NCBI GenBank assembly: GCA_905221615.1
Contig: CAJNDT010002779.1
Span: forward strand, 602,001-666,000
Length of the DNA stretch: 64,000 bases
Source of the DNA: Symbiodinium sp. CCMP2592
Lineage: Eukaryota > Sar > Dinophyceae > Suessiales > Symbiodiniaceae
Direction of reading: 5' to 3'
Every line of letters begins with the position of its first letter. Position 1 is the first letter of the stretch. The translations under genes and the position numbers were made by a program. Of the stretch, positions 1,638 to 63,262 are shown in pieces. The notes under the pieces were generated by a model, which worked only from the letters and a program-made list of their open reading frames with translations, ran no database searches and was not told where the DNA came from.

Positions 1638-1750
1638 CCTATAGTCTCCATTGTAGTAGTTCCTTTTCATGGTTGACGAGTTTTATGGTTAGGATCCTAT
1701 AATATAGTTTTTGGTTAACCAAAAAATCGAACTACAATGGAGACTAGAGG
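1638..1750. mobile_element. Foldback element, family A (copy 1)
   Basis: Inverted repeat starting CCTATAGTCTCCATTGTAG and ending with its near complement CTACAATGGAGACTAGAGG. The interior carries the shared AGGATCCTATAATAT motif. 113 bp with no coding capacity. Other copies lie at 22310, 34944, 38751, 45140, 53707 and 56501. Confidence 0.85.
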
Positions 1751-1959
1751 TACGGAGATAATGATCCTTTATCAGTTATCATCTTCGCCTCGGTGCATGA
1801 TTTTTGGGACGCGCCCTAATGAGGGCTCTACGGTCCGCATCCAATCCAATCCAAGTCCCCCGACCCCCCAAGTGCGGCACTGTCAAGGTGCTGAACTTGA
1901 GGATTCAGTGTGGCCTTCAGCGTGCAGGTGTCGTTTGACCAACGTCCCCTCAAAACCTT

Positions 1960-2002
1960 CAACCCCTCAAAAGCAGAAAGTTCAGGAGAACCCTTCTCCT
2001 TA
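1960..2002 (+). other. Partial duplicate of the exon candidate at 2391
   Basis: The stretch around 1968-1995 reads AGCAGAAAGTTCAGGAGAAC and is nearly identical to the start of the exon candidate at 2391 (AGCAGAAAGTCCAGGAGAAC), with the same preceding CAAC/CAAA context. A third, shorter echo (GTAGAAAGTTCC) occurs near 2020. It looks like local duplication of an intron-exon junction, later decayed. Confidence 0.45.
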
Positions 2003-2170
2003 AGTCTAAACCCCCCAAAGTAGAAAGTTCCCCAAACCCTAAAGCCATGTAAGCCCTAACGCCTAAAGCCCTAAACCACATTCCCAAACCATAAACCCCT
2101 TAAATTTCAGGCTGTGGTACACGTTTTTACTTTCAGGTTTCTGGGTTCCTATTATAAAACAAGAAGCCCA

Positions 2171-2366
2171 AAAAACCCTAAACCCTAAACCCTAAACCCC
2201 TAAACCCTAAACCCTAAACCCCTAAACCCTAAACCCTAAAACCCTAAACCCTACAACCCTAAACCCTAAACCCTAAACCCCTAAACCCCTAAACCCTAAA
2301 CCCTAAACCCCTAAACCCTAAACCCCTAAACCCTAAACCCTAAACCCCTAAACCCCTAAACCCTTA
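2171..2366. repeat. Telomere-type array, CCCTAAA orientation
   Basis: About 27 copies of CCCTAAA with CCCCTAAA variants, the densest such block in the window, preceded from about 2030 by degenerate copies. It is internal, not a chromosome end, because unique sequence follows on both sides. It sits directly upstream of an exon candidate whose other side carries the opposite orientation. Confidence 0.9.
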
Positions 2367-2390
2367 CTGAACAGCCTAGACTTTCAACAG

Positions 2391-2447
2391 CAGAAAGTCC
2401 AGGAGAACTCTTCGGATCTGGAGGGCTGGGTGGAGGCGCGGCTGTCG
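2391..2447 (+). CDS. Exon candidate, 19 codons, unidentified acidic helix
   Basis: Bounded by CAACAG on the left and GTTTAGGG on the right, exactly 57 nt, phase 0 at both ends. It reads QKVQENSSDLEGWVEARLS, which looks like a charged helix. It lies between a CCCTAAA array (2171-2366) and a TTTAGGG array (2448-2489), the bracketed arrangement seen repeatedly here. No family is recognisable from so short a piece. The partial duplicate at 1960-2002 raises interest but not certainty. Confidence 0.35.
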
Positions 2448-2489
2448 GTTTAGGGTTTAGGGTTTTAGGGTTTAGGGTTTAGGGTTTAG
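2448..2489. repeat. Telomere-type block, TTTAGGG orientation
   Basis: Five to six GTTTAGGG units immediately after the exon candidate, in the opposite orientation to the array upstream. The first unit supplies the GT of a possible splice donor. Confidence 0.85.
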
Positions 2490-2508
2490 GTTTCCAAGAG
2501 GGTCCATA

Positions 2509-2588
2509 CCTGGACCCCAAAAGTATGTAGAATAATAGCCTTTTTTGGGGTTTTGGGCCATTATTTTACCTACTTTTGGGGGGTCTAG
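2509..2588. mobile_element. Foldback element, family G (nested)
   Basis: About 80 bp, CCTGGACCCC... to ...GGGGTCTAG, with the conserved middle AATAATAGCC / GGGCCATTATT. It is preceded by TA and splits the family H repeat arm. Confidence 0.75.
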
Positions 2589-2668
2589 TTAAGTACCACT
2601 ATTATGGAGTTAGGTCCCAAAAGACCCTTGTTCTGGCTTTTTGGATCTCATTCCATAATGGTAGTGTA

Positions 2669-2764
2669 GGAACCTGATTAAGGAACCCTAGCTCAATAAG
2701 CCCAAAACAGTAGGATCCATATTGAGGACCCTAATAAAGACCCAGGGTTACTTAATCAGGTTCC
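2669..2764. mobile_element. Foldback element, family I (nested)
   Basis: Inverted repeat GGAACCTGATTAAGGAACC / CTTAATCAGGTTCC, flanked on both sides by TA. It lies between GGTAGTG and CATAATTT of the family H element. A second copy is at 62666-62762. Confidence 0.8.
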
Positions 2765-2986
2765 TACATAATTTTGATGGATCCTCTGGGTTTGGATTTG
2801 GGTCAAAGAGCCTCCAAGGGCGGAATTAAGGTTCAGGGTTTAGGGTTGAGGTAGTTGGGGTTTGGGGTTTAGGGAGTCCTGAAGGGATCCCTAATCCTAC
2901 CCACCTTCCTCCCACCTTTTGCGGCCTCCAACTGGGGAGTTGTGGCTTAGAGTTTGTGGGTGCAGGCGTTTAGGAGCTTATAGGCT

Positions 2987-3057
2987 CTTGTCAGGTTTCG
3001 GTAGCTGAAGGATTTATAGGATTTTGTCAGGTTTCGGTAGCTGAAGGATTTATAGGG
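2987..3057. repeat. Tandem duplication of about 34 bp
   Basis: TTGTCAGGTTTCGGTAGCTG plus AAGGATTTATAGG occurs twice in succession. The surrounding 2830-3180 is degenerate TTTAGGG-like DNA without a gene. Confidence 0.75.
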
Positions 3058-3371
3058 TTCGGGGTTTACGGTGGTCTTTAAAGATTTGCAGGGTTTGGGG
3101 GATTATAATATAGTGGTTTAGGAGTCTGAAGGTTTCGGGGTTTAGGGTCTAAGGTATAGGAATATGAACATTTAAGTGTGATTTCACGGAAACATATGCT
3201 TTTATGCCGTTATCAAGCCCCTACTGTAAACCTTCTATGTCGATCCTAAATGTCACATATAGGACCCTTACAAGAACCCATACCCCAAACCTAAAGCCTG
3301 AACTAAACACAGACCCGAAGAAGTGCACCTCAACCGAAACCCATAGTCTTCTTCGGTGCAAAGTGCAGGTA

Positions 3372-3571
3372 GGATGCCCAGTAGTACCATTACCTGGACC
3401 CTAAGGAACCTACCTTTTTTTAGGGTTCCCTAATATGATTTCTTTATATAAGTCCTGAGAAGGTAGGTTACGTGGGCTTAAGGTATTCCCTTTTTTGTAG
3501 TCCTAGATTTCTTATACAGTTCGCCAATACCAGAAAGGGAGCCCTTTGTATTTCTAGGCTACTGGGCATCC
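3372..3571. mobile_element. Foldback element, family L, interrupted by family K
   Basis: Ends GGATGCCCAGTAG / CTACTGGGCATCC, flanked by TA on each side. Removing the inner element at 3393-3483 and one TA restores the 21083-21189 layout (CAGTAGTACC..TTATTC). Confidence 0.85.
3393..3483. mobile_element. Foldback element, family K (nested in L)
   Basis: CCTGGACCCTAAGGAACC to TTACGTGGGCTTAAGG, 91 bp, with TA directly repeated at both edges. The empty site is visible in the other family L copy. Confidence 0.85.
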
Positions 3572-3579
3572 TAGTTTGA

Positions 3580-4200
3580 TTAGATTGAATACTGAGAGAC
3601 CGACTGTCCACAGCCTGTATATAGCTTGACATGGGGATTATAGGTTTAGGGCTTCGGGTTCGTTTAGGGTATACTATTCATTGTAGTTCCTGTTGTGGAT
3701 AACTTGTTGGTATATGAAAGGACTCTAGCCATAAAGCTGATTGGCTGTCCGAAAAAAGGAGCTGTAATGCCGACGAAAGGAGGGGCGCCTGATAGAGATT
3801 CTTCTCTCATTTTCGATTTAGGGCCCTGTGAACCACCCAGTCTTTTGACACGAGCCCAAATAAGCAGCTAAGAGTACACTTTGGCAGTACGATCTTCAAA
3901 GCCGGGGGTGTGGGGTGCGCGGAGGGAGGAGGGGGTTCGGTGTCAATACGTGTTGTTTACGAGCTTTCCTTGATCCCTTGAAGTATCGAGGCATTCGTAG
4001 CGAAATTAAAGCGTCAGTTGGTATTCCCTGTACTCCAAGTCCCAGTTAACATCGTTTCACCTTGAGCCCCGCACACCAAATGCATGCCCAATTTTTTTCA
4101 TAAAGTCTACTACGAGTTCCAAAGCCGGACATTGTTTCCCGAAGCCGTTGTAATGTTAGTTTCAAACAACATGGCTCCATGGAAATATCCCAAAACTACT
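3580..4200. other. No recognisable feature
   Basis: Non-repetitive sequence with two short TTTAGGG-like stretches near 3650. No exon candidate with good edges was seen. The following 4205-4654 has a 149-codon minus-strand frame, which is within the chance expectation. Confidence 0.4.
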
Positions 4201-4681
4201 AGAATCACAACTTCAAGCACACCCAATAAGACGGATCCGCTGCCCAAGTAATTTTGTAAACGTTCACAAAGTCGACTGCAAGTTCTAACGTTGGTTTTCC
4301 CCAGGCCGTGGAAATGTCAGTTTCAGACAGCAGGGTCTCATGGAAACAGCCCCTAGCTAGTCGGATCCCGCGCATAAATCGCGCCAATTCAACTGACTCC
4401 TGCTTTAACTCAGCCTTTTCCACATCGGGTAGGGTTCGTATTCGGGATGTCGGTGAGGGGAAGAGGGCTCCATGGGAATATGGGTGGGCCTGCCTGGTAT
4501 GATACGAGTAAGTAGAACCCTTCATGCAATCCCTGTAATTCCAAAAAAGCTTTATTGAGTTGATAAAACACTGACAACACTTCATACTCCGCAGCCTGAT
4601 AGGTATGACCCCGAGCTTAGAGTCCCCCGTTTTGCCGACAGCTCTCAGGCGCAAACGGCCCGGTCGTCTCGTCTAATGCAG

Positions 4682-4708
4682 CTCTTCGAGAAGGTCTGCC
4701 AGCTGGGG
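4682..4708 (+). CDS. Micro-exon candidate, 27 nt
   Basis: Preceded by CTAATGCAG and followed by GTTTGGG, exactly nine codons in phase 0-0: LFEKVCQLG. A related piece, RLFEKLSLIVAQ, follows a strong acceptor at 18281, which suggests duplicated exons. Alone it is too short to be convincing. Confidence 0.28.
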
Positions 4709-4738
4709 GTTTGGGAGGAATTGGGGTTGCTACACTTC

Positions 4739-4967
4739 ACTTACCTTTGGCTAGTACTTGGAGGGTCGGGGGACTTAGTAATTGGTTATTTTAGGGACAT
4801 ATAAGTACCATAACCCCAGTTAGGGTCCCTTTTAGGGTACTTATAAGTCTACTTACTAACTACTTACTAAGTCCCCCGACCCCCCAAGTAGGGAATGGAA
4901 GAATGGTAGTACTAAAGTACTTATAATTGTACCCCATTCCTCCAATCCCTACTAACCAAAGGTAAGT
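4739..4967. mobile_element. Foldback element, family N, interrupted by family C
   Basis: Outer repeat ACTTACCTTTGGCTAG / CTACTAACCAAAGGTAAGT. The intact copy at 27213-27305 is 93 bp. The insert occupies 4757-4888. The right terminus GGTAAGT matches a consensus splice donor. Confidence 0.8.
4757..4888. mobile_element. Foldback element, family C (nested in N)
   Basis: CTTGGAGGGTCGGGGGAC to its complement ending CCCAAG, 132 bp, flanked by TA. The empty site GGCTAG-TA-GGGAATGG can be read from the other family N copy (GGTTAGTAGGGAATGG). Nearly identical to the copy at 58110. Confidence 0.88.
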
Positions 4968-9078: not shown

Positions 9079-9180
9079 GGGTAGTTGTCAATATTGTGGC
9101 CCCTTTTTGGGCACCCCAAATATTAGGTGCCGTATTCTTAACAAGGACCCAAAAAGGGACCATAATTTCGACAACCACCC
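9079..9180. mobile_element. Foldback element, family J (copy 1)
   Basis: GGGTAGTTGTCAATATTGTGG to CATAATTTCGACAACCACCC. Flanked by the 4-bp direct repeat GAAT (9075-9078 and 9181-9184), unlike the 2-bp duplications of other families. Confidence 0.85.
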
Positions 9181-10781: not shown

Positions 10782-10890
10782 CCCAGAGACTCCAATATCC
10801 CTTAATTAAGGAATATACCTTAAATCATAACAGGGTCCCTAATATGATTTAAGGAATATTCTTTAATTAAGGGATATTGGAGTCTCTGGG
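10782..10890. mobile_element. Foldback element, family B (copy 2, intact)
   Basis: CCCAGAGACTCCAATATCCC to its complement ending CTCTGGG, 109 bp, almost fully palindromic. Flanked by GA on both sides. Confidence 0.9.
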
Positions 10891-12120: not shown

Positions 12121-12185
12121 GTCAGTAGCCACAGTCATCCCTGAGGCCTAGCATGTCCCAGTGTCCCAAACATGAAGCCTAAGCA

Positions 12186-12271
12186 AAGGCTCCAAAGTAG
12201 TTCCTTTTGGGGTTCATGTTTAGAATCCTACAAGGTAATCCCAAAAAGGAACTACTTTGGGGCCTTTGGGT
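12186..12271. mobile_element. Foldback element, family D (copy 1)
   Basis: GGCTCCAAAGTAGTTCC and GGAACTACTTTGGGGCC arms around ATGTTTAGAATCCTACAAGG. The right side reads GGGTAAGCC. Confidence 0.8.
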
Positions 12272-12389: not shown

Positions 12390-12393
12390 AGTT

Positions 12394-12862
12394 AGGGCCT
12401 TTAGGGTCTAGGGGTTTAGGGTTTAGGGCCTTTGGGGTCTAGGGGTTTAGGGTTTAGGGCCTTTGGGGTCTAGGGGTTTAGGGTTTAGGGCCTTTGGGGT
12501 CTAGGGGTTTAGGGTTTAGGGCCTTTGGGGTCTAGGGGTTTAGGGTTTAGGGCCTTTAGGGTCTAGGGGTTTAGGGTTTAGGGCCTTTAGGGTCTAGAGG
12601 TTTAGGGTTTAGGGCCTTTAGGGTCTAGAGGTTTAGGGTTTAGGGCCTTTAGGGTCTAGGGGTTTAGGGTTTAGGGCCTTTAGGGTCTAGAGGTTTAGGG
12701 TTTAGGGCCTTTAGGGTCTAGAGGTTTAGGGTTTAGGGCCTTTAGGGTCTAGGGGTTTAGGGTTTAGGGCCTTTAGGGTCTAGAGGTTTAGGGTTTAGGG
12801 CCTTTAGGGTCTAGAGGTTTAGGGTTTAGGGCCTTTAGGGTCTAGGGGTTTAGGGTTTAGGG
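12394..12862. repeat. 31-bp minisatellite built from TTTAGGG
   Basis: About 15 copies of GGGCCTTTAGGGTCTAGG plus GGTTTAGGGTTTA. From 12541 on, the variant base (CTAGGGG versus CTAGAGG) follows a strict G-A-A order, giving a 93-bp higher-order unit repeated three times. Earlier units instead carry TTTGGGG. This indicates expansion by unequal exchange or replication slippage of three units at a time. Confidence 0.92.
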
Positions 12863-12937
12863 CCTTCCTTTGTGGGGTTACCTTATAGGGTTCTAAAAAT
12901 GAGAACCCCAAAAAGGAACTACCTTGGGGCCTTAGAT
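12858..12937. mobile_element. Family D element fused to the minisatellite
   Basis: The right arm is complete (CCCCAAAAAGGAACTACCTTGGGGCC). The left arm is reduced to GGCCTTCCTTTGTGGGG and merges with the last minisatellite unit. Confidence 0.6.
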
Positions 12938-14574: not shown

Positions 14575-14706
14575 CTTGGAGATTCATGGGACCTATAGTA
14601 AGTACAACTATAAGTGCCTTAACTGGGGATATAACCAATTATAAGTTGTTATAAGTATAGTTACCTTATTTATAACCCTAGTTACTAAGTGCCATGAACC
14701 TCTAAG
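14575..14706. mobile_element. Foldback element, family C (copy 2)
   Basis: CTTGGAGATTCATGGGACC to GTGCCATGAACCTCTAAG, flanked by TG on both sides rather than TA. Confidence 0.87.
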
Positions 14707-17221: not shown

Positions 17222-17475
17222 GTAAGTTACTGAGTTAAGGGTACTAGAAACGGTGTATATAATTACGCTTCAAGGGACAGTAACCCGGTATATACCCACA
17301 CCTCCCAATATCCGTCAAGTAAGGACTAGACCTTAAATCATCTTCGTGACCCTACCATAACCTAGGGTATATATTTCTTCATGAACGGAATATTGGAAGG
17401 TCTGGGTAGAAGGTGGGTTACTGTCCCTAGAAGCCTCTGTAGACCTTATATAGTACCCAGAACCCAGTAACTTAC
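17222..17475. mobile_element. Long foldback element (254 bp), single copy here
   Basis: Outer arms GTAAGTTACTGAGTTAAGG / AACCCAGTAACTTAC, middle arms AAGGGACAGTAACCC / GGGTTACTGTCCCT, inner arms CCTCCCAATATCCGT / ACGGAATATTGGAAGG. The three nested hairpins suggest one long cruciform or two elements inserted in each other. The left end starts GTAAGT. Confidence 0.8.
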
Positions 17476-21231: not shown

Positions 21232-21351
21232 CTTGAAGGATCATGGGACTTAGTAAGTAGGTTATCATTGGGGTTATAAGTCCCCTAAGTGGGGTTATCT
21301 TAATTATAGCCTACTTATAACCTGACTTACTACGTCCCATGAGCCTTTAAG
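21232..21351. mobile_element. Foldback element, family C (copy 3)
   Basis: CTTGAAGGATCATGGGACTT to its complement ending CCTTTAAG, 120 bp, flanked by TA. Confidence 0.88.
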
Positions 21352-22309: not shown

Positions 22310-22419
22310 CCTATAGTCTCCATTGTAGTTCCTTTTTTTGGTTATCCAAAATCTCTATTGTAGGTTCCTAACCATAAAACTGGTTAACCAGAAAAAGGAA
22401 CTACAATGGAGACTATAGG
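22310..22419. mobile_element. Foldback element, family A (copy 2, intact)
   Basis: CCTATAGTCTCCATTGTAG to its exact complement CTACAATGGAGACTATAGG, 110 bp. Flanked by TG on both sides. Confidence 0.92.
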
Positions 22420-24238: not shown

Positions 24239-24434
24239 CCTGGACCCTAAGGAAGCTACATTCTTAGGGCTTCCTTAGGATGATTTCCTTATATGGGGGG
24301 TTGTCAATATTAGGGCCCCTTGTTGGGTCCTTATTATAGTATGGCACTTAATTTTTAGGGTACCCCAAAAGGGGCCATAATTTTGACAACCACCCATCTG
24401 GGTCCTTAACAAGGTAGGTTAGATGGGGTTAAGG
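24239..24434. mobile_element. Foldback element, family K, interrupted by family J
   Basis: CCTGGACCCTAAGGAAGC on the left, TAGATGGGGTTAAGG on the right, flanked by TA. The insert lies at 24295-24395. Confidence 0.82.
24295..24395. mobile_element. Foldback element, family J (nested in K)
   Basis: GGGGGGTTGTCAATATTAGG to ATAATTTTGACAACCACCC. Flanks ATAT and ATCT, a 4-bp duplication with one mismatch. Confidence 0.82.
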
Positions 24435-24944: not shown

Positions 24945-25054
24945 CCCAGAGATCCCAATACCCCTTAGTTAAGGAATATACCTTAACTCCTCATAGAAAG
25001 CACCCTATTCTTTAAGGTATATTCCTTAAATTGAGGGGTATTGGTTTCGCTGGG
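24945..25054. mobile_element. Foldback element, family B (copy 4)
   Basis: CCCAGAGATCCCAATACCCC to GAGGGGTATTGGTTTCGCTGGG, 110 bp. Right end slightly diverged. Confidence 0.85.
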
Positions 25055-25072: not shown

Positions 25073-25129
25073 ATGCTTGGCCGGGCGAGGGAGCAGTTGC
25101 ACAGTATCCTTGACCTTGTCATTACGTAG
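25073..25129 (+). CDS. Small frame MLGRAREQLHSILDLVIT
   Basis: 18 codons and TAG, fitted between a family B and a family H element. The TAG is the left end of family H (ACG|TAGAGGC), so the frame may instead continue to a donor GTAGAG there. Confidence 0.22.
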   Translation: MLGRAREQLHSILDLVIT

Positions 25130-25234
25130 AGGCTCCACTTATAGTACCATAATGGAAGTAGGTCCCCAAAGCCATGACATGGATGGTCTTTTGGGACCCA
25201 ATTCCATAATGGTACTACAAATGGAGCCTCTGGG
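25124..25234. mobile_element. Foldback element, family H (copy 2, uninterrupted)
   Basis: GTAGAGGCTCCACTTATAGTACC / GGTACTACAAATGGAGCCTCTGGG, with CCATAATGGAAGTAGGTCCCC and its inverse inside. Confidence 0.82.
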
Positions 25235-27810: not shown

Positions 27811-27916
27811 TGGGAGTTTCCGAAAATAGGGGACCCTACACTAGCACCCTAAATAGTAGGATCCTTATATTATAAGGACCCCACAATAAGGTACCCCTAC
27901 CTTTCGGAAACACCCA
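27811..27916. mobile_element. Foldback element, family E (copy 1)
   Basis: TGGGAGTTTCCGAAAATAGG to CCTTTCGGAAACACCCA, 106 bp, flanked by GA. Confidence 0.87.
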
Positions 27917-28283: not shown

Positions 28284-28392
28284 CCCAGAGATCCCAATAC
28301 CCCTCAATTAAGGAATATACCCTAAGTCATAATATTAAGGCCTCTATAACTTAGGGTATATTCTCTAATTAAGGGGTCTTGGGTTCTTTGGG
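28284..28392. mobile_element. Foldback element, family B (copy 5)
   Basis: CCCAGAGATCCCAATACCCC to AAGGGGTCTTGGGTTCTTTGGG, 109 bp, flanked by AA. Confidence 0.88.
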
Positions 28393-32564: not shown

Positions 32565-32672
32565 TGGGAGTTTCCGAAAATAGGGGACCCTAAAACATAG
32601 TACCCTAAAATAGTAGGGTCCTTATTATAGTAAGGACCCAAACAAGCTTCCCTTAATTTTCGGAAAGTCCCA
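32565..32672. mobile_element. Foldback element, family E (copy 4)
   Basis: TGGGAGTTTCCGAAAATAGG to TTAATTTTCGGAAAGTCCCA, 108 bp. Confidence 0.83.
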
Positions 32673-33743: not shown

Positions 33744-33852
33744 CCCAGAGATCCCAATACCCCTTGATTAAGGAATATACCTCAAATCATACTATTAAGC
33801 CCCCCATTATTTAAGGTATATTCCTTCATTAAGGGGTATTGAGTTCACAGGG
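33744..33852. mobile_element. Foldback element, family B (copy 6)
   Basis: CCCAGAGATCCCAATACCCC to AAGGGGTATTGAGTTCACAGGG, 109 bp. Confidence 0.85.
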
Positions 33853-34943: not shown

Positions 34944-35053
34944 CCTATAGTCTCCATCGTAGTTCCTTTTTTTGGTTATCCAATTTTACGGTTAGGACCC
35001 TATAATAGAGATTTTTGGATAACCAAAAAAGGCACTACAATGGAGACTATAGG
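34944..35053. mobile_element. Foldback element, family A (copy 3)
   Basis: CCTATAGTCTCCATCGTAG to its complement ending GACTATAGG, 110 bp, flanked by CA on both sides. Confidence 0.9.
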
Positions 35054-35617: not shown

Positions 35618-35726
35618 CCCAAAGGGTCCAAAGTACCTCTATAGTAGAATGTAGGGTTTCTATATTAGGAATTACTATTATGATTTGGGCAGGTATCCCC
35701 CATAACAGTACCTAGGACCCTTTGGG
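35618..35726. mobile_element. Foldback element, family F (copy)
   Basis: CCCAAAGGGTCCAAAGTACC to GTACCTAGGACCCTTTGGG, about 109 bp. Confidence 0.8.
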
Positions 35727-36946: not shown

Positions 36947-37058
36947 CTTGGAGGGTCATTGGGTAGTTTCCAGTGGAGTTATACGTCCCAGAATAGGGGT
37001 TAGAATTATGGTTTCCTTACTTAAAAACCCCACTTATAACTACCCATGAACCTCCAAG
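36947..37058. mobile_element. Foldback element, family C (short subtype)
   Basis: CTTGGAGGGTCATTGGGTAG to CTACCCATGAACCTCCAAG, 112 bp. Shares the GGGTAG arm with 47149 and 53528. Confidence 0.83.
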
Positions 37059-37724: not shown

Positions 37725-37877
37725 TAAGCCCATGTCAGATAGAAGCCTGATCCCCAAACCTTCAGCCCCTGAACTGTAGACCCAATACTTAAAGGGGGAT
37801 TACCTTATAGGGTTCCCTTAAAGGGGATCTATAGGGGCTTATAGGGTTCCTTTAAAGGGGATCTATAGGGTTCTACT

Positions 37878-37986
37878 TAAAGGGAACTCCAGAAAGTTGG
37901 AATATGGTTTCAGGGTAGGGTACCTTAAATTTACCATAAAGGGCTTAGGATCATCATATTCCAACTTTCTGGCTTTTACCTTAAAG
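37878..37986. mobile_element. Foldback element, family Q (copy 1)
   Basis: CCAGAAAGTTGGAATATGG to TCATATTCCAACTTTCTGG, with AAGGGAACT / GCTTTTACCTT outer parts. 37795-37880 upstream holds TTTAAAGGGGATCTATAGG short palindromes. Confidence 0.82.
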
Positions 37987-38237: not shown

Positions 38238-38346
38238 CCCAGCGACTCCAATATCCCTTAAGGAATATGCCTTACATCATATTTGGGATCCTGTTATTAT
38301 ATTTTAAGGTATATTCCTCAAGTAAGGGGTTTTTGGAGTCTCTGGG
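38238..38346. mobile_element. Foldback element, family B (copy 7)
   Basis: CCCAGCGACTCCAATATCCC to TTTTTGGAGTCTCTGGG, 109 bp, flanked by AA. Confidence 0.87.
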
Positions 38347-38654: not shown

Positions 38655-38744
38655 CCCAAAGGGTCCAAGGATCATCCTGGTAGATACTTATAGGGCATTT
38701 TGGGGGTCTAAGTATGTCCCATGATGATACATGGACCCTTTGGG
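38655..38744. mobile_element. Foldback element, family F (short)
   Basis: CCCAAAGGGTCCAAGGATC to ATGATACATGGACCCTTTGGG, 90 bp. It directly precedes a family A copy. Confidence 0.78.
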
Positions 38745-38750: not shown

Positions 38751-38854
38751 TATCCATGTTAGTTCCGATTTTTTGGTTCACCAATGCTATGGTTAGGATC
38801 CTATAATACAAATTTGGTGAACCCAAGAACAGGAACTACCATGGAGGCTATAGG
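38751..38854. mobile_element. Foldback element, family A (left arm diverged)
   Basis: The right arm AACTACCATGGAGGCTATAGG is clear. The left arm TATCCATGTTAGTTCC matches only in part. Confidence 0.7.
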
Positions 38855-40127: not shown

Positions 40128-40216
40128 CCCATAGGCCCCATTGCATGTCCTTGTTGGGATTACCTTAGGGGGTTCTAATTTGAACCCCAAATAGGAGCTA
40201 CTTTGGGGCCTTAGGG
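40128..40216. mobile_element. Foldback element, family D (copy 3)
   Basis: CCCATAGGCCCC to GGGGCCTTAGGG, 89 bp, flanked by TA. It sits between the two copies of ACTTGTCACTCCTYGCA. Confidence 0.88.
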
Positions 40217-41247: not shown

Positions 41248-41356
41248 CCCAGAGACTCCAATACCCCTTAATTAAGGAATATTCCTTAAATCATATTAGG
41301 GACCCTATTATGATTTAAGATATATTCCTTAATTAAGGGATGTTGGAGTCTCTGGG
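41248..41356. mobile_element. Foldback element, family B (copy 8, intact)
   Basis: CCCAGAGACTCCAATACCCC to its complement ending CTCTGGG, 109 bp, flanked by TA on both sides. The cleanest family B copy. Confidence 0.92.
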
Positions 41357-41457
41357 TAGGTCCAGGATGCAGGCCACATGCGTGGGCTTAGAGCTTTGGT
41401 GTCGGTGTCACGCGTCAATTCTCCGGCCTGGTTGTGTTCGTTACAGCGACGTACTGT

Positions 41458-41546
41458 TGATGCACAAAATCCTGCATGACCCTAAGGACTCTCAACTATG
41501 CAACTATGGTATATTCCTTATAATAGGTAATGCATGATTTTGTCCA
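41458..41546. mobile_element. Foldback element, family R (copy)
   Basis: GATGCACAAAATCCTGCATG to GGTAATGCATGATTTTGTCC. Confidence 0.72.
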
Positions 41547-41704
41547 TGAGCAGTTGGTTTATCCTCCAGATTCCAGGGCTTCCCGAAGCCGACACTGCAG
41601 TTCCCATGCCCAACCAGCCGAATGCAACGGCCAGAACCCCAATTAATTGCAGACGGGGAGCCGAGGTGATTCCCGAGCCAGCAGGGGGCCCGGATTTGTT
41701 TTGA
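41540..41704 (+). other. Coding-like stretch, including EVIPEPAGGPDLF
   Basis: One frame reads VHEQLVYPPDSRASRSRHC then QPAECNGQNPN and TAA. The next frame gives GAEVIPEPAGGPDLF, a possible diverged Glu-Pro module. Edges are unclear. Confidence 0.25.
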
Positions 41705-45279: not shown

Positions 45280-45386
45280 TAAAGGGAACTCCAGAAAGTT
45301 GGAATATGGTTTCAGGGTAGGATACCCTATAATATACCATAAAGGGTTTAGGATAATCATATTCCAACTTGCTGGCTTTTGCTTTA
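45280..45386. mobile_element. Foldback element, family Q (copy 2)
   Basis: AAAGGGAACTCCAGAAAGTTG to CATATTCCAACTTGCTGGC. Nearly identical to 37878-37986. Confidence 0.83.
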
Positions 45387-46138: not shown

Positions 46139-46239
46139 GGGTAGTTGTCAAAATTATGGTCCCTATTTGAGTACCCTAAATATTATGTGCCGTATTATAT
46201 TAAGGACCCAAAAAGGGACCCCAATATTGACAGCCACCC
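46139..46239. mobile_element. Foldback element, family J (copy 4, intact)
   Basis: GGGTAGTTGTCAAAATTATGG to AATATTGACAGCCACCC, flanked by the 4-bp repeat ACCT (46135-46138 and 46240-46243). Confidence 0.88.
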
Positions 46240-47108: not shown

Positions 47109-47314
47109 CCCATAGGCTCCATAGTAGTTTGATTTTGGGGTTGCCTTACTTGGAGGTTCATGCGTAGTTATGAGTAGAGTTATAAGAAGGGCAACTGTAC
47201 TTATGACCCATAATAGGGGACTTACAATCCTACGTATAACTACCCATTCATGAACCTCCAAGTATAGGACTCTAAGTATGAGTCCCAATAAGGAACTACT
47301 ATAGAGCCTATGGG
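47109..47314. mobile_element. Foldback element, family D, interrupted by family C
   Basis: CCCATAGGCTCCATAGTAG to CTACTATAGAGCCTATGGG, flanked by TA. The insert is at 47149-47262. Confidence 0.88.
47149..47262. mobile_element. Foldback element, family C (nested in D)
   Basis: CTTGGAGGTTCATGCGTAG to CATTCATGAACCTCCAAG, flanked by TA. Removing it and one TA gives GGTTGCCTTATAGGACTC, the usual family D core. Confidence 0.88.
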
Positions 47315-47800: not shown

Positions 47801-47913
47801 CCCAGAGAACCCAATACCCCTTAAATAAGGAATAGACCTTCAATTATAGAGGCCTTAATATTATCATTTAAGGTATGTTCCTTAATTAAGGGGTATGGTA
47901 TTGGGTTCTCAGG
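47801..47913. mobile_element. Foldback element, family B (copy 9)
   Basis: CCCAGAGAACCCAATACCCC to GGTATTGGGTTCTCAGG. The 7-bp string CAGGAGA stands on both sides. Confidence 0.82.
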
Positions 47914-47996: not shown

Positions 47997-48119
47997 GTTA
48001 AAGGCTCATGGGACTTAGTAAATAATAAGGTTATAAGTAGGTTATAGTTAGGCTACCCCCACTTAGGGGACTTATAACCCCAGTTATAACCTACTTACTA
48101 AGTCCCATGATCCTTCAAG
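47997..48119. mobile_element. Foldback element, family C
   Basis: GTTAAAGGCTCATGGGACTT to AGTCCCATGATCCTTCAAG, flanked by TG. Confidence 0.85.
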
Positions 48120-48270: not shown

Positions 48271-48379
48271 GTACCCGGTCCAAATACCCGAATAGTAGGG
48301 TTTCAGGTCCTAAAATCCATACTCTGAATGGTTTTTGGACCTCGAAACCCTACTATTTGAGTACCTGGACCCTCTGGGG
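48271..48379. mobile_element. Foldback element, family F
   Basis: GTACCCGGTCCAAATACCCG with AATAGTAGGGTTTCAGG, to its inverse ending GGACCCTCTGGGG. Confidence 0.82.
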
Positions 48380-48730
48380 TAATCAACCCCAAACAGTAGA
48401 CGCCGTACACAGCCGACCCGAAAGCCTAACGCCTAAAGCACACCATCAGGGCCAATGCAAGCCGAGGATATTTTTTGCTTTGGGGCTTAAGGTTCGGATC
48501 GGGGGTGCAGTCAGGGTTGTTTTCTTATAATTATGAGAAGTGTGAAACCACACATTTCAAAACCTTTACCCTAGGGCTCAAAATATCCCAACAGCCTTAT
48601 ATAGTATGGTCTTTGGGCCCAAAAGCCTTAAAATATGAGTCCTTAGAGCCTATAGGGGTTATGATACCCTCGTCAAGCGTTCCAACACCCTTTATAGAAG
48701 CCAGAGAGGTCCCCAGTCAATGTACAACGG

Positions 48731-48907
48731 TTGATGATAGAAATCCTGCATTACCCATAATAAGGAATATACCAAGGGGTTCCTTTAAGGGATCTATAGG
48801 GTTAGGGTTTAGGGAGATAAATCCTGCATTAGCTGCCCCATAGTAAGGAATACCATAATTCCCATAGTTTAGGGCCCTTATTGTAATGCAGGATTTATAT
48901 CATCAAC
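48731..48907. mobile_element. Foldback element, family R, with internal insertion
   Basis: TTGATGATAGAAATCCTGC to GCAGGATTTATATCATCAA. The interior holds a duplicated arm (GATAAATCCTGCATTAG) and an inserted TTTAAGGGATCTATAGGG plus TTAGGG piece. Confidence 0.78.
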
Positions 48908-49269
48908 AGAAGTTCAGGCAGAATGGGTGTTGGTGCTGTATGTGCTATAGGGCTTCAGGTTCACGGGTTGCAAGTTTTGCAAGTGTTGTTCGCTTAAGGG
49001 GATGTTGAACGGATGTTGCAGGACGTCTTCAAAGTGAGAGCCGACGTTTCACGGGCCAGCTGAATCACACCAGCGAAGTGTCCCGAGAAATTACTCTTAG
49101 TTTGGGCTGAGGGTTGATGAGGGTTTAGAGCTCTGGTTTGAACGTTGTTCCCCCTGACTGACCATGCACCATCGTATATAAATTCTCCAAAGCAGCATGC
49201 CCCTGAATGATGTCGTCCCTCCAGTCCCCAAACAACTAAAACCGTGAAGCACTGAAGGACAGGGTCATA

Positions 49270-51521: not shown

Positions 51522-51600
51522 CCTAGACCTCAAAAAGTAGGCAAAATAATGGCCCAAAACCTACAACAGGCTATTATTCTACACACTTTTGGGGTCCAGG
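51522..51600. mobile_element. Foldback element, family G (79 bp)
   Basis: CCTAGACCTCAAAAAGTAGG to CACACTTTTGGGGTCCAGG, flanked by TA. Same length as the copies at 51020 and 61898. Confidence 0.88.
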
Positions 51601-52976: not shown

Positions 52977-53355
52977 TTATAGTGCACCGATACACGCAAC
53001 GACTTTGACGTGCGCTTTGGGAGATGCAAACACCAACGCGCATACCCCAACTGAAACATCAATCGCCACGGCATGGTGTGGAAGTCTTGGGGCTTCGATA
53101 CCTGTCATGTCACTCGAAGCTGCGTGCTGCATAATGCCCTTGTAAGAAGTAAGGTCCACAACAAGGGTTTTCGTTGCTGATTGTCAAGACTGCGTTTGTT
53201 TTGGCGTGCACGTCTAGCAACCGAAAGAACCACGCCTGGAGAGCGCGATACATTAAGGCGTAGCCGAAAAGAATCCAGTCTAGGGGTTCCTTTATAAGGT
53301 TGTAGCAGGCAGGGCTTGTTATGGGGGTTATCATAAGCCCAGAAGGTCCAAGCAC
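52977..53355 (-). other. Minus-strand coding-like region
   Basis: Minus frames 53110-53355 (FGYALMYRALQAWFFRLLDV) and 52977-53159 (MQHAASSDMTGIEAPRLPHH) follow each other in different frames. The region is unique and moderately protein-like. If real, it is a rare minus-strand gene piece, possibly frameshifted. Confidence 0.25.
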
Positions 53356-53446
53356 TCAAATAGTAGGGTTTCGAGGTCCAAAAACCATGCAGAGTATGGA
53401 TTTTAGGACCTGAAACCCTACTATTCGGGTACTTGGACCCTCTGGG
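53338..53446. mobile_element. Foldback element, family F
   Basis: CCCAGAAGGTCCAAGCACTC to GGGTACTTGGACCCTCTGGG, 109 bp, flanked by AAG on both sides. Very similar to 48271. Confidence 0.87.
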
Positions 53447-53527: not shown

Positions 53528-53641
53528 CTTGGAGGTTCATGGGTAGTCATAAGTAGGGTTATAAGTCCCCTAATATGGGTTATAAGTACAGTTACCCTAT
53601 ATACTTATAACTCTACTTATAACTATCCATGAACCTCCAAG
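53528..53641. mobile_element. Foldback element, family C (short subtype)
   Basis: CTTGGAGGTTCATGGGTAG to CTATCCATGAACCTCCAAG, 114 bp, flanked by TG. Confidence 0.9.
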
Positions 53642-53706: not shown

Positions 53707-53805
53707 CCTGTAGTCTCCATTGTAGTTCCTTTTTTGGCTTAACCAGCTACATAGCAAGGATCCCATAAGGTAACACCAAAAAAAGAATTACAATGGAGAC
53801 TATCG
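53707..53805. mobile_element. Foldback element, family A (copy 6)
   Basis: CCTGTAGTCTCCATTGTAG to TTACAATGGAGACTATCG, about 99 bp. Confidence 0.82.
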
Positions 53806-54148
53806 AAAGTTCACAGGTCATCAAAAAGCACTCCAAACCCTGGGCCCAGCTAAACCCTGTTAGCAGTAGTGCAACAGGCCGCAGCAATCTGCAATCCCAG
53901 CACGCGACCTTTTTTGGCGCACTGAGCGTTCTCTCTTGGACGGGGAGGAACCATCCCAGTAATGCAGCCGATATTCGCGATTCCAGGAACACGCTGTAGC
54001 ATGTCACGATGTAGAATGTAGAATAAGCTACAGGGCCGCTCAAGATCTTGAACCAGAATCTGAATTGGTGTGAACACGTTTAAACGGCATCAGACGCCGC
54101 CCAGTTGGTCCTGCACTCGAAAGCTCCTTTGTTCTGATTTGGTGATTA

Positions 54149-54254
54149 ATATAGGGGCCTTAATAAATACCTATACTATTTTGGGTGGGCTTCTTATTAT
54201 AAGTATAGTACAACGGGACCCAAAACCATATTCTACTTATTAAGGCCCCTATAT
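54149..54254. mobile_element. Foldback element, family P (intact)
   Basis: ATATAGGGGCCTTAATAAAT to ACTTATTAAGGCCCCTATAT, 106 bp, flanked by TA. The right flank reads TTAG|TC. Confidence 0.88.
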
Positions 54255-54486
54255 TAGTCATCGCCATCTTGATTCCTAACATGTCTGTGCTGACGCTTCC
54301 CTGCGATGCTTCTTGTTGTTTCTTCTAGCATATCACCGGAGGAGCCCCGCCTCATAAAGACAAAGCTTAACCTAAGCTCTGAGCAACTTATGTAAGGATA
54401 AATCCACATTCCTGGCCCCGAAACGTCCCGAACACCCTCACAACTAGACTCTTTAAGCCTTAGTCGCTAAAGTCTTAGGCCAACAG

Positions 54487-57641: not shown

Positions 57642-57751
57642 CCTGTAGGCTCATACCCTACCCCTTTTTTAGGATGCCGTGCTTTGTGGTTAGGATCTGT
57701 TGTATGGAAAATTAGATACCCTAAAAAAGCGGTAGGGTATGAGCCTACAGG
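57642..57751. mobile_element. Foldback element, single-copy family (O)
   Basis: CCTGTAGGCTCATACCCTAC to its complement ending CTACAGG, 110 bp, flanked by TA. Confidence 0.87.
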
Positions 57752-58109: not shown

Positions 58110-58242
58110 CTTGGAGGGTCGGGGGACTTAGTAACTGATTATTTTAGGGACTTAATAAGTACCATAACCCCAATTAGGGTCCCTTTTAGGGTACTTATAA
58201 GTCTACTAACTAACTACTTACTAAGTCCCCCAACCCCCCAAG
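58110..58242. mobile_element. Foldback element, family C
   Basis: CTTGGAGGGTCGGGGGACTT to AGTCCCCCAACCCCCCAAG, 133 bp, flanked by TA. Nearly identical to 4757-4888. Confidence 0.9.
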
Positions 58243-58641: not shown

Positions 58642-58761
58642 CTTGGAGGATAAGGGGACTTAGTAAGTACAACCATAAGTACCTTAACTGGGGATATAAC
58701 CAAAACTAAGTATAGTTACCTTAATTATAACCCTAGTTCCCAAGTCCCATGATCCTCCAAG
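58642..58761. mobile_element. Foldback element, family C
   Basis: CTTGGAGGATAAGGGGACTT to AAGTCCCATGATCCTCCAAG, flanked by TA. Confidence 0.88.
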
Positions 58762-59283: not shown

Positions 59284-59374
59284 TGGGAGTTTCCGAGAAT
59301 AGAGGGTACCTTATGTTGGGGTCCGTAGAATAAGGATCGTACTATTTAGGGTGCCCTCTTTTCGGAAACTCCCA
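59284..59374. mobile_element. Foldback element, family E
   Basis: TGGGAGTTTCCGAGAATAGAG to CTCTTTTCGGAAACTCCCA, 91 bp, flanked by GA as in copy 1. Confidence 0.88.
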
Positions 59375-59834: not shown

Positions 59835-59841
59835 GATATAG

Positions 59842-59909
59842 ACCACACTAGAATAACAGCCTTTGATAGGTCTTGGGCCATTAGTTCACCTACTTTTCGG
59901 AGTTTAGGT
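59842..59909. mobile_element. Family G element, decayed
   Basis: AGAATAACAGCC and GGGCCATTAGTTCACCTACT are recognisable. The ends are diverged. Confidence 0.55.
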
Positions 59910-60018
59910 AACGCCCCTCGAAGAGGATGGGTCCGGAACTTGCTTTGGGGCCCACACCGGTTCGGGCTTCTACCGGTGCGAAACAGGGTCAGAAGCAGAA
60001 CCGTAAGAATACCAGCAT

Positions 60019-60213: not shown

Positions 60214-60363
60214 GCAACATGCATGCTAGTAATTAGAGCTTCGGGGATTGCATCAACGGCAGTGGAGTCCTCCGTAATGGCAGATACGCCAAGATGTCTT
60301 GCAAGCCTCCGACCAATCGCCCTGCGGTCAAGAGACTTCCAGCAAACCGCGCTCTAGTAGTGC

Positions 60364-60621
60364 TTGCTTCTTGCTTGCAAAAAAGCAACGAAAGTAGCAG
60401 TCGGTGTGAGAAGTAACAGAAACAGTGCCAGTGCCAGCGCCAGCGTCAGCACCAGCAGCACCCACAACCGCATCCGCACCAGCACCATCCAGCTCCAGCA
60501 GCAGGGTACTTCGGCAATACAGCAAGCTGCTGATTCTTGCATCTCACAGAGCAATCTGCAATTTATCTTCCCTAAACGTGCAAATATCTGTGCTCAAGTC
60601 CTGCCTGGAGTGGACATGTAA
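60364..60621 (+). CDS. Coding-like frame, 85 codons
   Basis: KKATKVAVGVRSNRNSASAS, then THNRIRTSTIQLQQQGTSAI and NLQFIFPKRANICAQVLPG. A CAGTGCCAGCGCCAG-type short repeat lies in the middle. An overlapping plus frame (60425-60673) and two minus frames are also open. Confidence 0.33.
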   Translation: MLLACKKATKVAVGVRSNRNSASASASVSTSSTHNRIRTSTIQLQQQGTSAIQQAADSCISQSNLQFIFPKRANICAQVLPGVDM

Positions 60622-60682
60622 ACCTGTGATAATTGGCAGAGAGTTGCAAGAAGAATCCTCTCGCTCGCTATGAGGACAAACG

Positions 60683-61097
60683 ATGGATCCGTGCTTTTGC
60701 CTGAAGGGCATAAGCAGTTGGGTCTATGTCGCCCGGATCCTCAGAATCACTGCGCTGTGGTATGGTTGGGCAAGGGTGGAATGCTGGGATGATCAGACAA
60801 AAGACGACTTGGGTGCTCCAGGCTACACGAGATCAGGGTCGAGGGTTCCCGGATGGCCCAAAGAGTGGTGTGTTGCATAGAAACCTGATGCCCCAAATCC
60901 CTGGAACGCCGGAAACTCCTAGCCACTCAACCGCCTCAACCCTAAATCCTCGAACCCCCAAGCCCCAAATGCTGCTGAGGCCAAAAGTCCGACGCCGCCC
61001 CCTCCACTTCCAATCGCAGGCCAGTGTTGAAAGTTTCTTCATGATACGAGTGATGGACAGTATCCCGCATTACATGAAGATTCCTCCTAAACTTTGA
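60683..61097 (+). CDS. Coding-like region, two overlapping plus frames
   Basis: Frame 60683-60880: SSWVYVARILRITALWYGW, then DDQTKDDLGAPGYTRSGS. Frame 60726-61097: QATRDQGRGFPDGPKSGV and later QSQASVESFFMIRVMDSIP. CCCTAAA-like codons (LNPRTPKPQ) lie at 60930-60970. Confidence 0.3.
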
Positions 61098-61149
61098 GAA
61101 ATGTTTCAGTTTATTTGGACCATGCAGATTTGTCCATCAGCTGATGACG

Positions 61150-61340
61150 ACGACTACTACAACTTGTACTACTACTACTACTACTACTCCTCCTCCTCCT
61201 CCTCCGCCTCCTCCTCCTCCTCCTACTACTACTACTACTACTACTGCTATTACTGCTGCTGCTACTGGTGCTGCTACTACCACTACTAGTATCATAACTA
61301 TTAGCACCACCACGACGACTACATTCACTATCACTATCTG
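61150..61340. repeat. TAC/TCC trinucleotide microsatellite
   Basis: ACTACTACAACTTGTACTAC, then (TAC)n, (CTC)n and (TGC)n. Reverse-complement type of the GTA tract at 36217. Confidence 0.93.
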
Positions 61341-61835
61341 GAGACCTCAGTCCTAGCTCTCAGATGAAAGTCTCTTGAGATAGCAACAGTGCCTGCAGCG
61401 TCCGGAACAAAACGGTGCTTGGCAAGTGCTTGACAGTAGAAGACTCGACGCAATAGCTCTGCTTGGCTTTCTGTCGATGCATCTTTGCATTTATAGTCGG
61501 ATCAAAAGAGCAAGGTAGGAAAAGTCAAGAGCTGCGGTATGTAGACCGGTCAAGCCACTGCAACCGCAGACTGAACACGGAGTCCTAGCTTGTCAACAGC
61601 ACACCCGAAGCCTCCAACGTCTCCTAAACATCCGGCACCCTTAACAGCAATAGTATTATGTTAGTTATGGTCCCCTTATAACTATACTTTCCTATGTCCC
61701 AAAACACGAATATACTTCTTGAGCCCCCTGTTTAAACCCTGAACCCGGAACCCTGAAGCCTCAAAGTTCCCTAGCCCGAAGCCCTAAGCCCAAGTACCCT
61801 GACGTGCACATGCAACCTTCTTCCCGAAGCTTAAA

Positions 61836-61897
61836 TGTGAGTTTCCTAAAATTTCGGGTACCTCATTTCGGGGTCCTTATTATAAGGATCCTACTAA
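61836..61897. mobile_element. Family E element, left half, cut by family G
   Basis: GTGAGTTTCCTAAAATTTCGG to AAGGATCCTACTA, where the family G element begins. The right half of E is absent. Confidence 0.65.
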
Positions 61898-61976
61898 CCT
61901 GGACCCCACAAGTATGCAGAATAACAGCCTTTTATAGGTTTTGGGCCATTATTTTACCTACTTTTGGGGGTCTAGG
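61898..61976. mobile_element. Foldback element, family G (79 bp)
   Basis: CCTGGACCCCACAAGTATGC to ACTTTTGGGGGTCTAGG. Confidence 0.86.
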
Positions 61977-62079
61977 TAAATGCTAGACATCATACACAAC
62001 CCCAAACCTTTTGCCTCCTACACATTATTCCGCCCAAACACACTTCAACCCTAAACATCTCGAAGCCTACCAGACGCTA

Positions 62080-62168
62080 CCCAGAGGCCCCAAAGTAGTT
62101 CCTTTTTGGGATTACCCATAGGATTCTATATATGAACCCCAAAAAGGAACTACTGTGGGGCCTTTGGG
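62080..62168. mobile_element. Foldback element, family D (copy 7)
   Basis: CCCAGAGGCCCCAAAGTAG to CTACTGTGGGGCCTTTGGG, 89 bp, flanked by TA. Confidence 0.9.
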
Positions 62169-62343
62169 TAAAGCCCAGCGACGGCAGGCCCGGGTGCTCT
62201 GAAATCCACCACTCCGGCTCCTGTGGTACCGCCGAACATGCCAGGGCACCGAGCTAGAGGATTCCCCAGCCACTACAGTGTCCTTAGGTTCCTTTAAAGG
62301 GATCTATAGGCTTTAGGGCCCCTTTTAGGGCTTCTTTAGGGGT

Positions 62344-62615
62344 CTACCCATAGTGTCCTTAGAATTTTTAAGTTTTGGTTCATATAAAACCAAGAGAATC
62401 TTGAAGATATTATCAAAAAGGTTTTGCACTTAGGATCTCCTATACTATACCCACAGGCCCCAAATGTAGTTCCTTTTGGGGGTTACCTTATAGAAGTCTA
62501 AATATCGACCCCAAAAAGGAACTACTTTGAGGCCTTAGGGTAGTGTCCTTAGGAATTATTTTAATTTGTGTTCATATAAAACCCAAGAGAATATTGAACA
62601 TATTATCATTATTAT
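62344..62615. repeat. 75-bp direct duplication around a family D element
   Basis: TAGTGTCCTTAGAATTTTTA with GTTCATATAAAACCAAGAG (62350-62425) recurs as TAGTGTCCTTAGGAATTATT with GTTCATATAAAACCCAAGAG (62541-62615). Confidence 0.85.
62450..62540. mobile_element. Foldback element, family D (copy 8)
   Basis: CCCACAGGCCCCAAATGTAG to CTACTTTGAGGCCTTAGGG, 91 bp, flanked by TA, between the two duplicated segments. Confidence 0.88.
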
Positions 62616-62665
62616 GGTTCTAAGGGGGATTCCCCCAGAAAGGGTTCATGTTCCCACATGATGCA

Positions 62666-62762
62666 AGAACCTGATTAAGAAACCCTGGGCCTATAACCCC
62701 AAACTGGTAGGATCCATACAAGGAGCCCTGATAAAGGCCCAACGTTCCTTAATCAGGTTCCT
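62666..62762. mobile_element. Foldback element, family I (copy 2)
   Basis: AGAACCTGATTAAGAAACCC to CGTTCCTTAATCAGGTTCC. Outside it, AGAAAGGGTTCATGTTCCC and ATACTTCGGACCCTTTAGG look like arms of a host F/H-type element. Confidence 0.78.
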
Positions 62763-62799
62763 ACATTAGTGGATACTTCGGACCCTTTAGGGATCGTGG

Positions 62800-63170
62800 T
62801 TGAAGGGTCCTGAATCTCTGAATAGCCAGAAATGTCAACAGTATTCCTTCAAAAGGGCTGCTTTGAAGGGCAATCTTTATGGGTGTTATAGTTGATATAC
62901 GGGTCCAGTGGAAAAGTACAGTAAGGTAAGGGATGATTTAGGAAGAACAGATGTACATTTTTTGGATTCGGTGGGAAAGAGTTAGGGCAGCTTTTCAGTT
63001 CGGCGTGCCAGATTTAGCAATGTAAGCCTGTGCTCCTTCATGCCGGGTTTGGGTTTAGGGTACTGTAGTATATGTAAATAGCAATCACTTTTCGCCTAGG
63101 CTGTTTGTAGCGGTGCTGGACTCTAGAGTAGCTTTCGAGCCTCCCGGGTTTTGGCTGCAGTCTTTTCGTT
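62800..63170. other. Unique DNA, no gene seen
   Basis: No frame with supporting edges. A short TTTAGGG patch at 63050. Confidence 0.4.
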
Positions 63171-63180
63171 AGGGCTCTGT

Positions 63181-63262
63181 GGGGGTTTCCGACAATAGGG
63201 GACTCTAATATAGCACCCTAAATAGTAGGATCCTTATTCTGAGGACCCCCAAAATTAGGGGT
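63181..63262. mobile_element. Family E element, right arm lost
   Basis: GGGGGTTTCCGACAATAGGG with AAATAGTAGGATCCTTATTC. The mirrored GGAAACTCCC end is missing. Confidence 0.65.

Follow-up and report, generated by a model that had tools for sequence, protein, structure and literature searches.

Miniature inverted-repeat transposable elements (MITEs), including the Stowaway-like and Tourist-like elements, are found in plants, animals and fungi. Tc1/mariner transposons are strict for a TA target, and CACTA/EnSpm transposons make target-site duplications (TSDs) of 2–4 bp and have CACTA or CACTG termini. The closest systems described in dinoflagellates are the introners, i.e., transposable elements that create introns. 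According to the published reports, the introners of Amoebophrya bear inverted repeats of 8–20 nt and direct repeats of 3–5 nt in a genome whose repeats are mostly unclassified (PMC7789003), and those of Prorocentrum were found by the Amoebophrya pattern of inverted plus direct repeats (PMC10666404). We analyzed a 64-kb stretch of the genome of Symbiodinium sp. CCMP2592 (the window, i.e., positions 602001–666000 of contig C2779) that carries many short foldback elements. These foldbacks are MITE-like non-autonomous transposons of many families with two insertion modes, a conclusion that we hold with high confidence. The families are new and their kind is already known, and the class that duplicates 2 bp fits no superfamily cleanly.

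Like MITEs, the elements of the window are short, bounded by terminal inverted repeats (TIRs), gene-less, present in high copy number, flanked by target duplications and nested in places. Unlike the usual MITEs, they are palindromes over nearly their whole length, the 2-bp duplication of one family (family C) is not fixed to TA, and no parent transposase is known for them. The size and the TIRs expected of MITEs were found in 39 curated elements of 79–206 bp, whose boundaries were set by TIR symmetry after their flanks had been viewed by eye.

Foldback Elements and Their Insertion Modes

A gapped fold-back search of the window, with simple-sequence hairpins filtered out, yielded 93, 78, 62, 55 and 43 non-simple hairpins at scores of at least 13, 14, 16, 17 and 20, respectively, vs. 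10–15, 4–9, 0–4, 0–1 and 0 in five dinucleotide-shuffled controls. An earlier scan with laxer filters gave 55 hairpins at a score of at least 20 and none in three shuffles. These counts rule out chance palindromes. Hairpins derived from simple repeats or telomere-like repeats were also rejected as the source, as they had been filtered out; telomere-like arms were present in 8 of the 55 hairpins of that earlier scan. The final set consists of 60 hairpins, 44 of which span 79–135 bp, and to these are added decayed or one-armed relatives identified by blast, in a list that includes low-complexity matches to five poor queries. The preliminary description of this DNA, which had put about 70 elements of mostly 79–135 bp between positions 1638 and 63262, was thus close in number; its first coordinate belongs to a real element (1638–1750), and its last falls where a decayed member of the GGGAGTTTCCG family lies (63181–63259). 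Its count of more than 15 families holds only when singletons are included, as 31–45 clusters, depending on stringency, have a window member in the window plus 200 kb of sampled genome; multi-copy families number only 11–13 in the same DNA, with many singletons besides. The elements do not fill the window as had been stated, the hairpin spans amounting to 10.7% of it.

The larger class of elements starts with CCC, CCT or CTT and duplicates 2 bp. For family C, 20 genome copies were fetched, of which 19 had both ends, and the boundary was fixed by motif. An exact 2-bp duplication flanked 18 of the 19 copies (permutation mean 3.4) and a 3-bp duplication none; copies L034 and L039 share the same flanks, so that they represent one insertion, which leaves 17 of 18 independent cases. 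The duplicated dinucleotides were TT (5), TA (4), AA (3), GA (2), GG (2), AT (1) and TG (1), and so were not fixed. Among the 33 curated elements of this class in the window, 23 had equal 2-bp flanks (permutation mean 9.4), TA being the commonest duplication (14 of 33); with TA/TA pairs excluded, 9 of 19 flank pairs still matched vs. 2.3 expected. Counts for other families were made in the window and in 20 sampled stretches of 10 kb (L001–L020), with boundaries set by motif and the window elements reused. The CTTGGAGG family showed exact 2-bp duplications in 14 of 17 copies (permutation mean 8.3, p 0.004), all of them TA (9) or TG (5).

The prevalence of TA duplications, together with the restriction of the CTTGGAGG copies to TA or TG, raises the question of whether the C-ended class represents Tc1/mariner (Stowaway-like) MITEs with TA targets, to which they are similar in their 2-bp duplication and in the preference of several families for TA. 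We consider this unlikely, since the unspecific duplication of family C, which uses six other dinucleotides besides TA, argues against Tc1/mariner, as does the excess of matching non-TA flank pairs in the window. Short target duplications are likewise shared with non-autonomous CACTA/EnSpm elements. The ends of the elements argue against this origin: they start with CCC, CCT or CTT instead of CACTA or CACTG, and none of 108 ends, picked for C-type starts, begins with CACT. Those 108 ends, from 33 window elements and 21 elements picked from the 20-locus scan for showing a 2-bp match, have the approximate terminal consensus CYYRGAGGCTCCA, in which, among the distinct ends, C1 stands at 97%, A6 at 84%, G7 at 81% and C11 at 80%; the elements had been chosen for C-type starts, and the leading C is partly due to selection. 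Thirty-six distinct terminal 8-mers occur among these ends, and 6 ends, of the CTGTTGATG type, do not follow the consensus.

The second class has GGG...CCC ends and duplicates 4 bp. Exact 4-bp duplications were found for 4 of the 6 window elements (permutation mean 1.0), for 10 of 14 copies of the GGGAGTTTCCG family (permutation mean 1.95) and for 6 of 8 copies of the GGGTGGTTGTC family (permutation mean 0.87), the last two counted in the window and the 20 loci. The sequence of the duplicated 4-mer was ANNT in 14 of the 16 cases from these two families. TSDs of fixed length, as are expected of MITEs, were thus observed in both classes, i.e., 2 bp in 18 of 19 family-C copies and 4 bp in 16 of 22 copies of the two GGG-ended families.

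Several results weigh against this interpretation. An exact 2-bp match is missing from 10 of the 33 curated C-ended elements: five have a 3-bp match and five neither. Taken alone, the 2-bp signals of the CCTATAG family (4 of 6, p 0.07), the CCCAAAGGCCCC family (7 of 10, p 0.14) and the CTGTTGATG family (4 of 8, p 0.14) are not significant; for the first two the permutation is weak because TA is so common there. An automated scan of the 20 loci, satellites included, recovered 2-bp duplications in 31 of 60 C-start hairpins (permutation mean 7.1). Among GGG-start hairpins of the same loci, it recovered 4-bp duplications in 4 of 30 (mean 0.23) and 2-bp duplications in 13 of 30 (mean 3.1), the latter mostly because the scan rule also fell in satellites or inside the arms of other families. 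Finally, Pfam searches of the window and of sampled loci and a search for C-ended repeats detected no transposase or full-length relative.

The elements of the window are as follows, where (.) means that no strand is assigned.

1638..1750 (.), 2-bp class, CCTATAG family; TIR; flanks CA/TA, no exact TSD
4739..4967 (.), host element, ACTTACCTTTGG...CCAAAGGTAAGT type; split by 4757–4888; intact relative at L009:1466–1538
4757..4888 (.), 2-bp class, CTTGGAGG family, nested; TSD TA; empty site in L009
7947..8038 (.), decayed family-C-like hairpin; hairpin score 24
9079..9180 (.), 4-bp class, GGGTAGTTGTC family; TSD GAAT
10782..10890 (.), 2-bp class, family C (CCCAGAGACTCC); TSD GA; genome copies
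12182..12270 (.), 2-bp class, CCCAAAGGCCCC family; TSD TA
14575..14706 (.), 2-bp class, CTTGGAGG family; TSD TG
17265..17436 (.), composite hairpin; score 33; nested CCC..GGG-type element inside by eye
21232..21351 (.), 2-bp class, CTTGAAGG; TSD TA
22310..22419 (.), 2-bp class, CCTATAG family; TSD TG
24295..24395 (.), 4-bp class, GGGGGGTTGTC; flanks ATAT/ATCT, one mismatch; empty site L010:1861–1954
24945..25054 (.), 2-bp class, family-C-like; flanks AA/TT, no exact TSD
25125..25234 (.), 2-bp class, related (CGTAGAGGCTCC); 3-bp flank match TTA
27812..27915 (.), 4-bp class, GGGAGTTTCCG family; TSD AGAT
28284..28392 (.), 2-bp class, family-C-like; TSD AA
29550..29639 (.), 2-bp class, CCTGTAGCC; TSD TA
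32566..32671 (.), 4-bp class, GGGAGTTTCCG family; flanks ATTT/ATCT, one mismatch
33744..33852 (.), 2-bp class, family-C-like; flanks GA/GT, no exact TSD
34944..35053 (.), 2-bp class, CCTATAG family; TSD CA
35618..35726 (.), 2-bp class, CCCAAAGGGTCC; flank match 1 bp only
36947..37058 (.), 2-bp class, CTTGGAGG family; flanks TA/AA, no exact TSD
37876..37986 (.), AGAAAGTTGGAATAT family hairpin; second copy 45280–45386
38238..38346 (.), 2-bp class, family C; TSD AA
38366..38494 (.), 2-bp class, CTTGGAGG family; TSD TA
38655..38744 (.), 2-bp class, CCCAAAGGGTCC; flank match TAT; by eye in left end of CCTATAG-type host, right part 38753–38845
40128..40216 (.), 2-bp class, CCCAAAGGCCCC family; TSD TA
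41248..41356 (.), 2-bp class, family C; TSD TA
41454..41553 (.), CTGTTGATG family; hairpin; no exact TSD
45280..45386 (.), AGAAAGTTGGAATAT family hairpin; clusters with 37876–37986
46139..46239 (.), 4-bp class, GGGTAGTTGTC family; TSD ACCT
47109..47314 (.), 2-bp class, CCCATAGGCTCC, long form; TSD TA
47801..47913 (.), 2-bp class, family-C-like; flank match AGA
47997..48119 (.), 2-bp class, CTTGAAGG; TSD TG
48274..48378 (.), 2-bp class, CCCAGAAGGTCC family, one damaged end; flank match GTA
48728..48909 (.), CTGTTGATG family; TSD AA
51020..51098 (.), 2-bp class, CCTAGACC family; TSD TT
51522..51600 (.), 2-bp class, CCTAGACC family; TSD TA
53338..53446 (.), 2-bp class, CCCAGAAGGTCC family; flank match AAG
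53528..53641 (.), 2-bp class, CTTGGAGG family; TSD TG
53711..53802 (.), CCTATAG-family hairpin, damaged ends; hairpin score 24
54141..54262 (.), TTAATATAGGGGCCTTAAT family; hairpin; top best-match count in the 20 loci (14)
57642..57751 (.), 2-bp class, CCTGTAGGCTC; TSD TA
58110..58242 (.), 2-bp class, CTTGGAGG family; TSD TA
58642..58761 (.), 2-bp class, CTTGGAGG family; TSD TA
59285..59373 (.), 4-bp class, GGGAGTTTCCG family; TSD AGAT
62080..62168 (.), 2-bp class, CCCAAAGGCCCC family; TSD TA
62450..62540 (.), 2-bp class, CCCAAAGGCCCC family; TSD TA
63181..63259 (+), GGGAGTTTCCG family, decayed copy; 84% in an alignment of 81 columns with 27812–27915

The AGAAAGTTGGAATAT hairpin at 37876–37986 appears by eye to be flanked by 9-bp direct repeats (CTTAAAGGG), which the copy at 45280–45386 lacks; these flanks possibly reflect a third insertion mode. 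The ACTTACCTTTGG...CCAAAGGTAAGT-ended family, present in the window at 4739–4967, was also found at L009 1466–1556, 3389–3461 and 4878–5017, L015 7213–7308 and L016 3952–4066. By eye it carries the splice-donor-like GTAAG on both strands, and it is an introner candidate.

Empty Sites, Nesting and Decay of the Arms

When the flanks of 178 elements were joined, 22 gave a match across the junction. Most of these matches were satellites or TTTAGGG-type repeats, and some others were gapped and doubtful (e.g., L012:896–1003 and L016:4274–4367). Clean empty sites were seen for one element of each insertion mode: L009:1466–1538 corresponds to the element at 4757–4888 (TSD TA), and L010:1861–1954 to that at 24295–24395 (4 bp removed). 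Both targets are themselves repeated sequences. The element at 38655–38744 apparently lies, as judged by eye, inside the end of a CCTATAG-type element.

The mean divergence of 22 family-C copies from the family consensus was 4.0% (0.9–7.3%). In the arms (24 copies, 50 complementary pairs), we counted 65 changes on one arm, 2 compensatory changes and 1 non-complementary double change, with about 1 double change expected under independence; this count dropped two of the 20 fetched copies, i.e., L028, which is without one end, and L039, the duplicate of L034. Thus, in family C the arms decay largely independently after insertion, and neither a maintained hairpin nor homogenization of the arms is supported there. 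Given that the families are all near-palindromic and yet differ in their arms, each probably started out as a near-perfect palindrome.

The predicted single-strand folding of the elements is strong, as all eight tested beat all of their 200 shuffles, which is what would be expected if the hairpins were conserved functional RNA or DNA structures, such as small-RNA precursors or chromatin anchors, and were not mobile. This explanation is highly improbable in light of the target duplications, the empty sites, the nesting and the predominance of one-arm over compensatory changes; furthermore, the window has no Rfam match at the gathering score.

Abundance Across the Genome

The assembly comprises 1,098,105,373 bases in 5383 contigs. 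A family-C query (window 10782–10890) identified 1317 candidate places in the genome, 40 of which were scored; these gave 40 nearly full-length copies with 93–96% identity on the better strand and one partial copy, with the query itself (100%) among them and two of the 40 within the window. The 20 sampled loci comprise 195 kb without N. Elements of the window matched these loci by blast at 1e-8 in 46 of 54 cases, or in 48 of 59 when five low-complexity queries were retained. With those queries dropped, the matches occupy 88 non-overlapping places and 4.2% of the sample, a density that may be biased upward, as the loci, although arbitrary in position, were all taken from contigs with family-C matches. 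The dispersed high copy number of MITEs is thus observed, and a rough extrapolation from the sample gives approximately 0.5 million copies genome-wide. The most frequent best match was the TTAATATAGGGGCCTTAAT element at 54141–54262 (14 matches). The loci held 101 hairpins at a score of at least 17, and all hairpins together occupy 7.3% of the sample, a figure to which satellites in L002 and L014 contribute. These satellite-like arrays consist of long palindromes that are perfect or nearly so (L002 6560–8176 and L014 1702–4042; TTCAATTATTTCAATT type; AAATCTGGCGGAAGTGATCCGCC type).

Foldback elements are therefore abundant and not dominant, at about 4–7% of the sampled DNA, and their dominance in the non-coding DNA, as expected in the preliminary description, was not borne out: relatives of the window families were absent from 7 of the 20 loci (L004, L005, L008, L017, L018, L013 and L014), the first five of which are the GC-richest (GC at least 0.513). 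Its proposal of many separate, non-autonomous families stands, as copies elsewhere in the genome have the same ends and the six frames of the window contain no Pfam-recognizable transposase; the arms are neither confined to the window nor carried by copies with unshared ends.

The window elements occupy lower-GC, TTTAGGG-rich stretches. Over the 20 loci, with the low-complexity queries dropped, element cover correlated with TTTAGGG-type 7-mers (Spearman 0.83) and inversely with GC (−0.62). Degenerate TTTAGGG/CCCTAAA arrays occur throughout the window (e.g., 2173–2364 and 12392–12866; 173 and 189 exact 7-mers). The density of such 7-mers, which tracks the foldback elements, was 24–85 per 10 kb in 14 of the 20 loci and 0–6 in the other six.

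Coding Content and the Origin of Mobility

Consistent with the lack of coding capacity in MITEs, the window gave no Pfam match at E ≤ 0.01 in any of its six frames, read regardless of introns; the sole entry in two window scans run to E 0.1 was DUF2633 (E 0.033, below its cut-off). No tRNA was found in the window. An open frame at 3–365 (+) of 121 residues enters at the left edge and ends at a stop codon; it has no Pfam match and may represent the 3′ end of a gene. In gene-rich loci, where the scans covered 12 frames from two loci and 10 long ones from seven, Pfam revealed no transposase, the only matches being kinase, RVT_2 and weak mucin-like, C1 and FAST ones. A search of 264 kb (the window plus the 20 loci) for C-ended inverted repeats 0.4–9.5 kb apart with equal 2-bp flanks, confined to the 2-bp class, returned seven rows. 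Their ends did not resemble the known ones, and none of the candidates was convincing as an autonomous C-ended element in this DNA.

Other genes and repeats were noted in the assembly. Copia-type pieces at L007:1–3099 (−) and L008:268–3060 (−) show, by eye, a long gag/protease-like frame without Pfam match, and an RVT_2 match (1.6e-13). Domain matches to the peridinin-chlorophyll protein family (PF02429) number 143 in the assembly, many of them full-domain, vs. none in 14 control genomes; its genes form large tandem arrays on contigs C1035, C722, C2391 and C784. Along with the TTTAGGG-type repeats, these matches indicate a photosynthetic dinoflagellate of the peridinin type.

We infer that the elements are moved by two or more transposition systems. 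One would cut at the C-type ends (roughly CYYRGAGGCTCCA) and duplicate 2 bp of the target, and the other would use the GGG...CCC ends and duplicate 4 bp, mostly ANNT. In each, a transposase may bind the common ends and mobilize the elements by a cut-and-paste mechanism, in the form of double-stranded DNA, and each family would be born as a near-perfect palindrome that decays after insertion. According to the Repbase description, non-autonomous elements are placed in the same superfamily if they agree in TSD length and, with one mismatch, in the first 11 bases of their termini (PMC4455052). This rule joins neither the two classes nor the CCC-ended with the CTT-ended families, which makes a single enzyme for all of the 2-bp class a guess.

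The introners bear on these elements in another way, as the copies in the window could be the intergenic portion of an introner population. According to published descriptions, dinoflagellate introners form hairpins from inverted repeats with direct repeats of 3–5 nt (PMC7789003), those of S. microadriaticum have TIRs and 4-bp TSDs, the length found in our 4-bp class (PMC9860276), and many introner families occur per genome (Roy et al., 2023, as summarized in PMC11453091). The elements of the window thus resemble the introners of Amoebophrya, S. microadriaticum and Prorocentrum in their inverted repeats, direct duplications, many families and dinoflagellate hosts, as judged by these descriptions. 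Unlike introners, they lie in DNA without recognized genes, i.e., without any Pfam family at E ≤ 0.01, and the loci without window-family matches include the five GC-richest. An introner origin is therefore improbable, and MITE-like transposons remain the interpretation that we prefer.

A broader proposal is that an undescribed DNA-transposase superfamily, with a relaxed 2-bp TSD and CYYRGAGGCTCCA ends, moves dozens of families in dinoflagellates, each palindromic over its whole length, and repeatedly founds new families as near-perfect palindromes, and that this superfamily and the 4-bp ANNT system jointly constitute the intergenic reservoir behind dinoflagellate introners; we regard this as speculative and quite unlikely. 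In the literature on dinoflagellate MITEs and foldbacks, as represented by the titles and abstract openings of part of the search results, with most subscription papers outside the coverage, no intergenic MITE families with such duplications were reported for a photosynthetic dinoflagellate. Dinoflagellates are rich in introners, and the defined ends, fixed TSDs and rough copy number of the elements described here provide a handle for finding the transposases. Whether a common machinery moves both introners and the MITEs of gene-poor DNA is thereby made a testable question.

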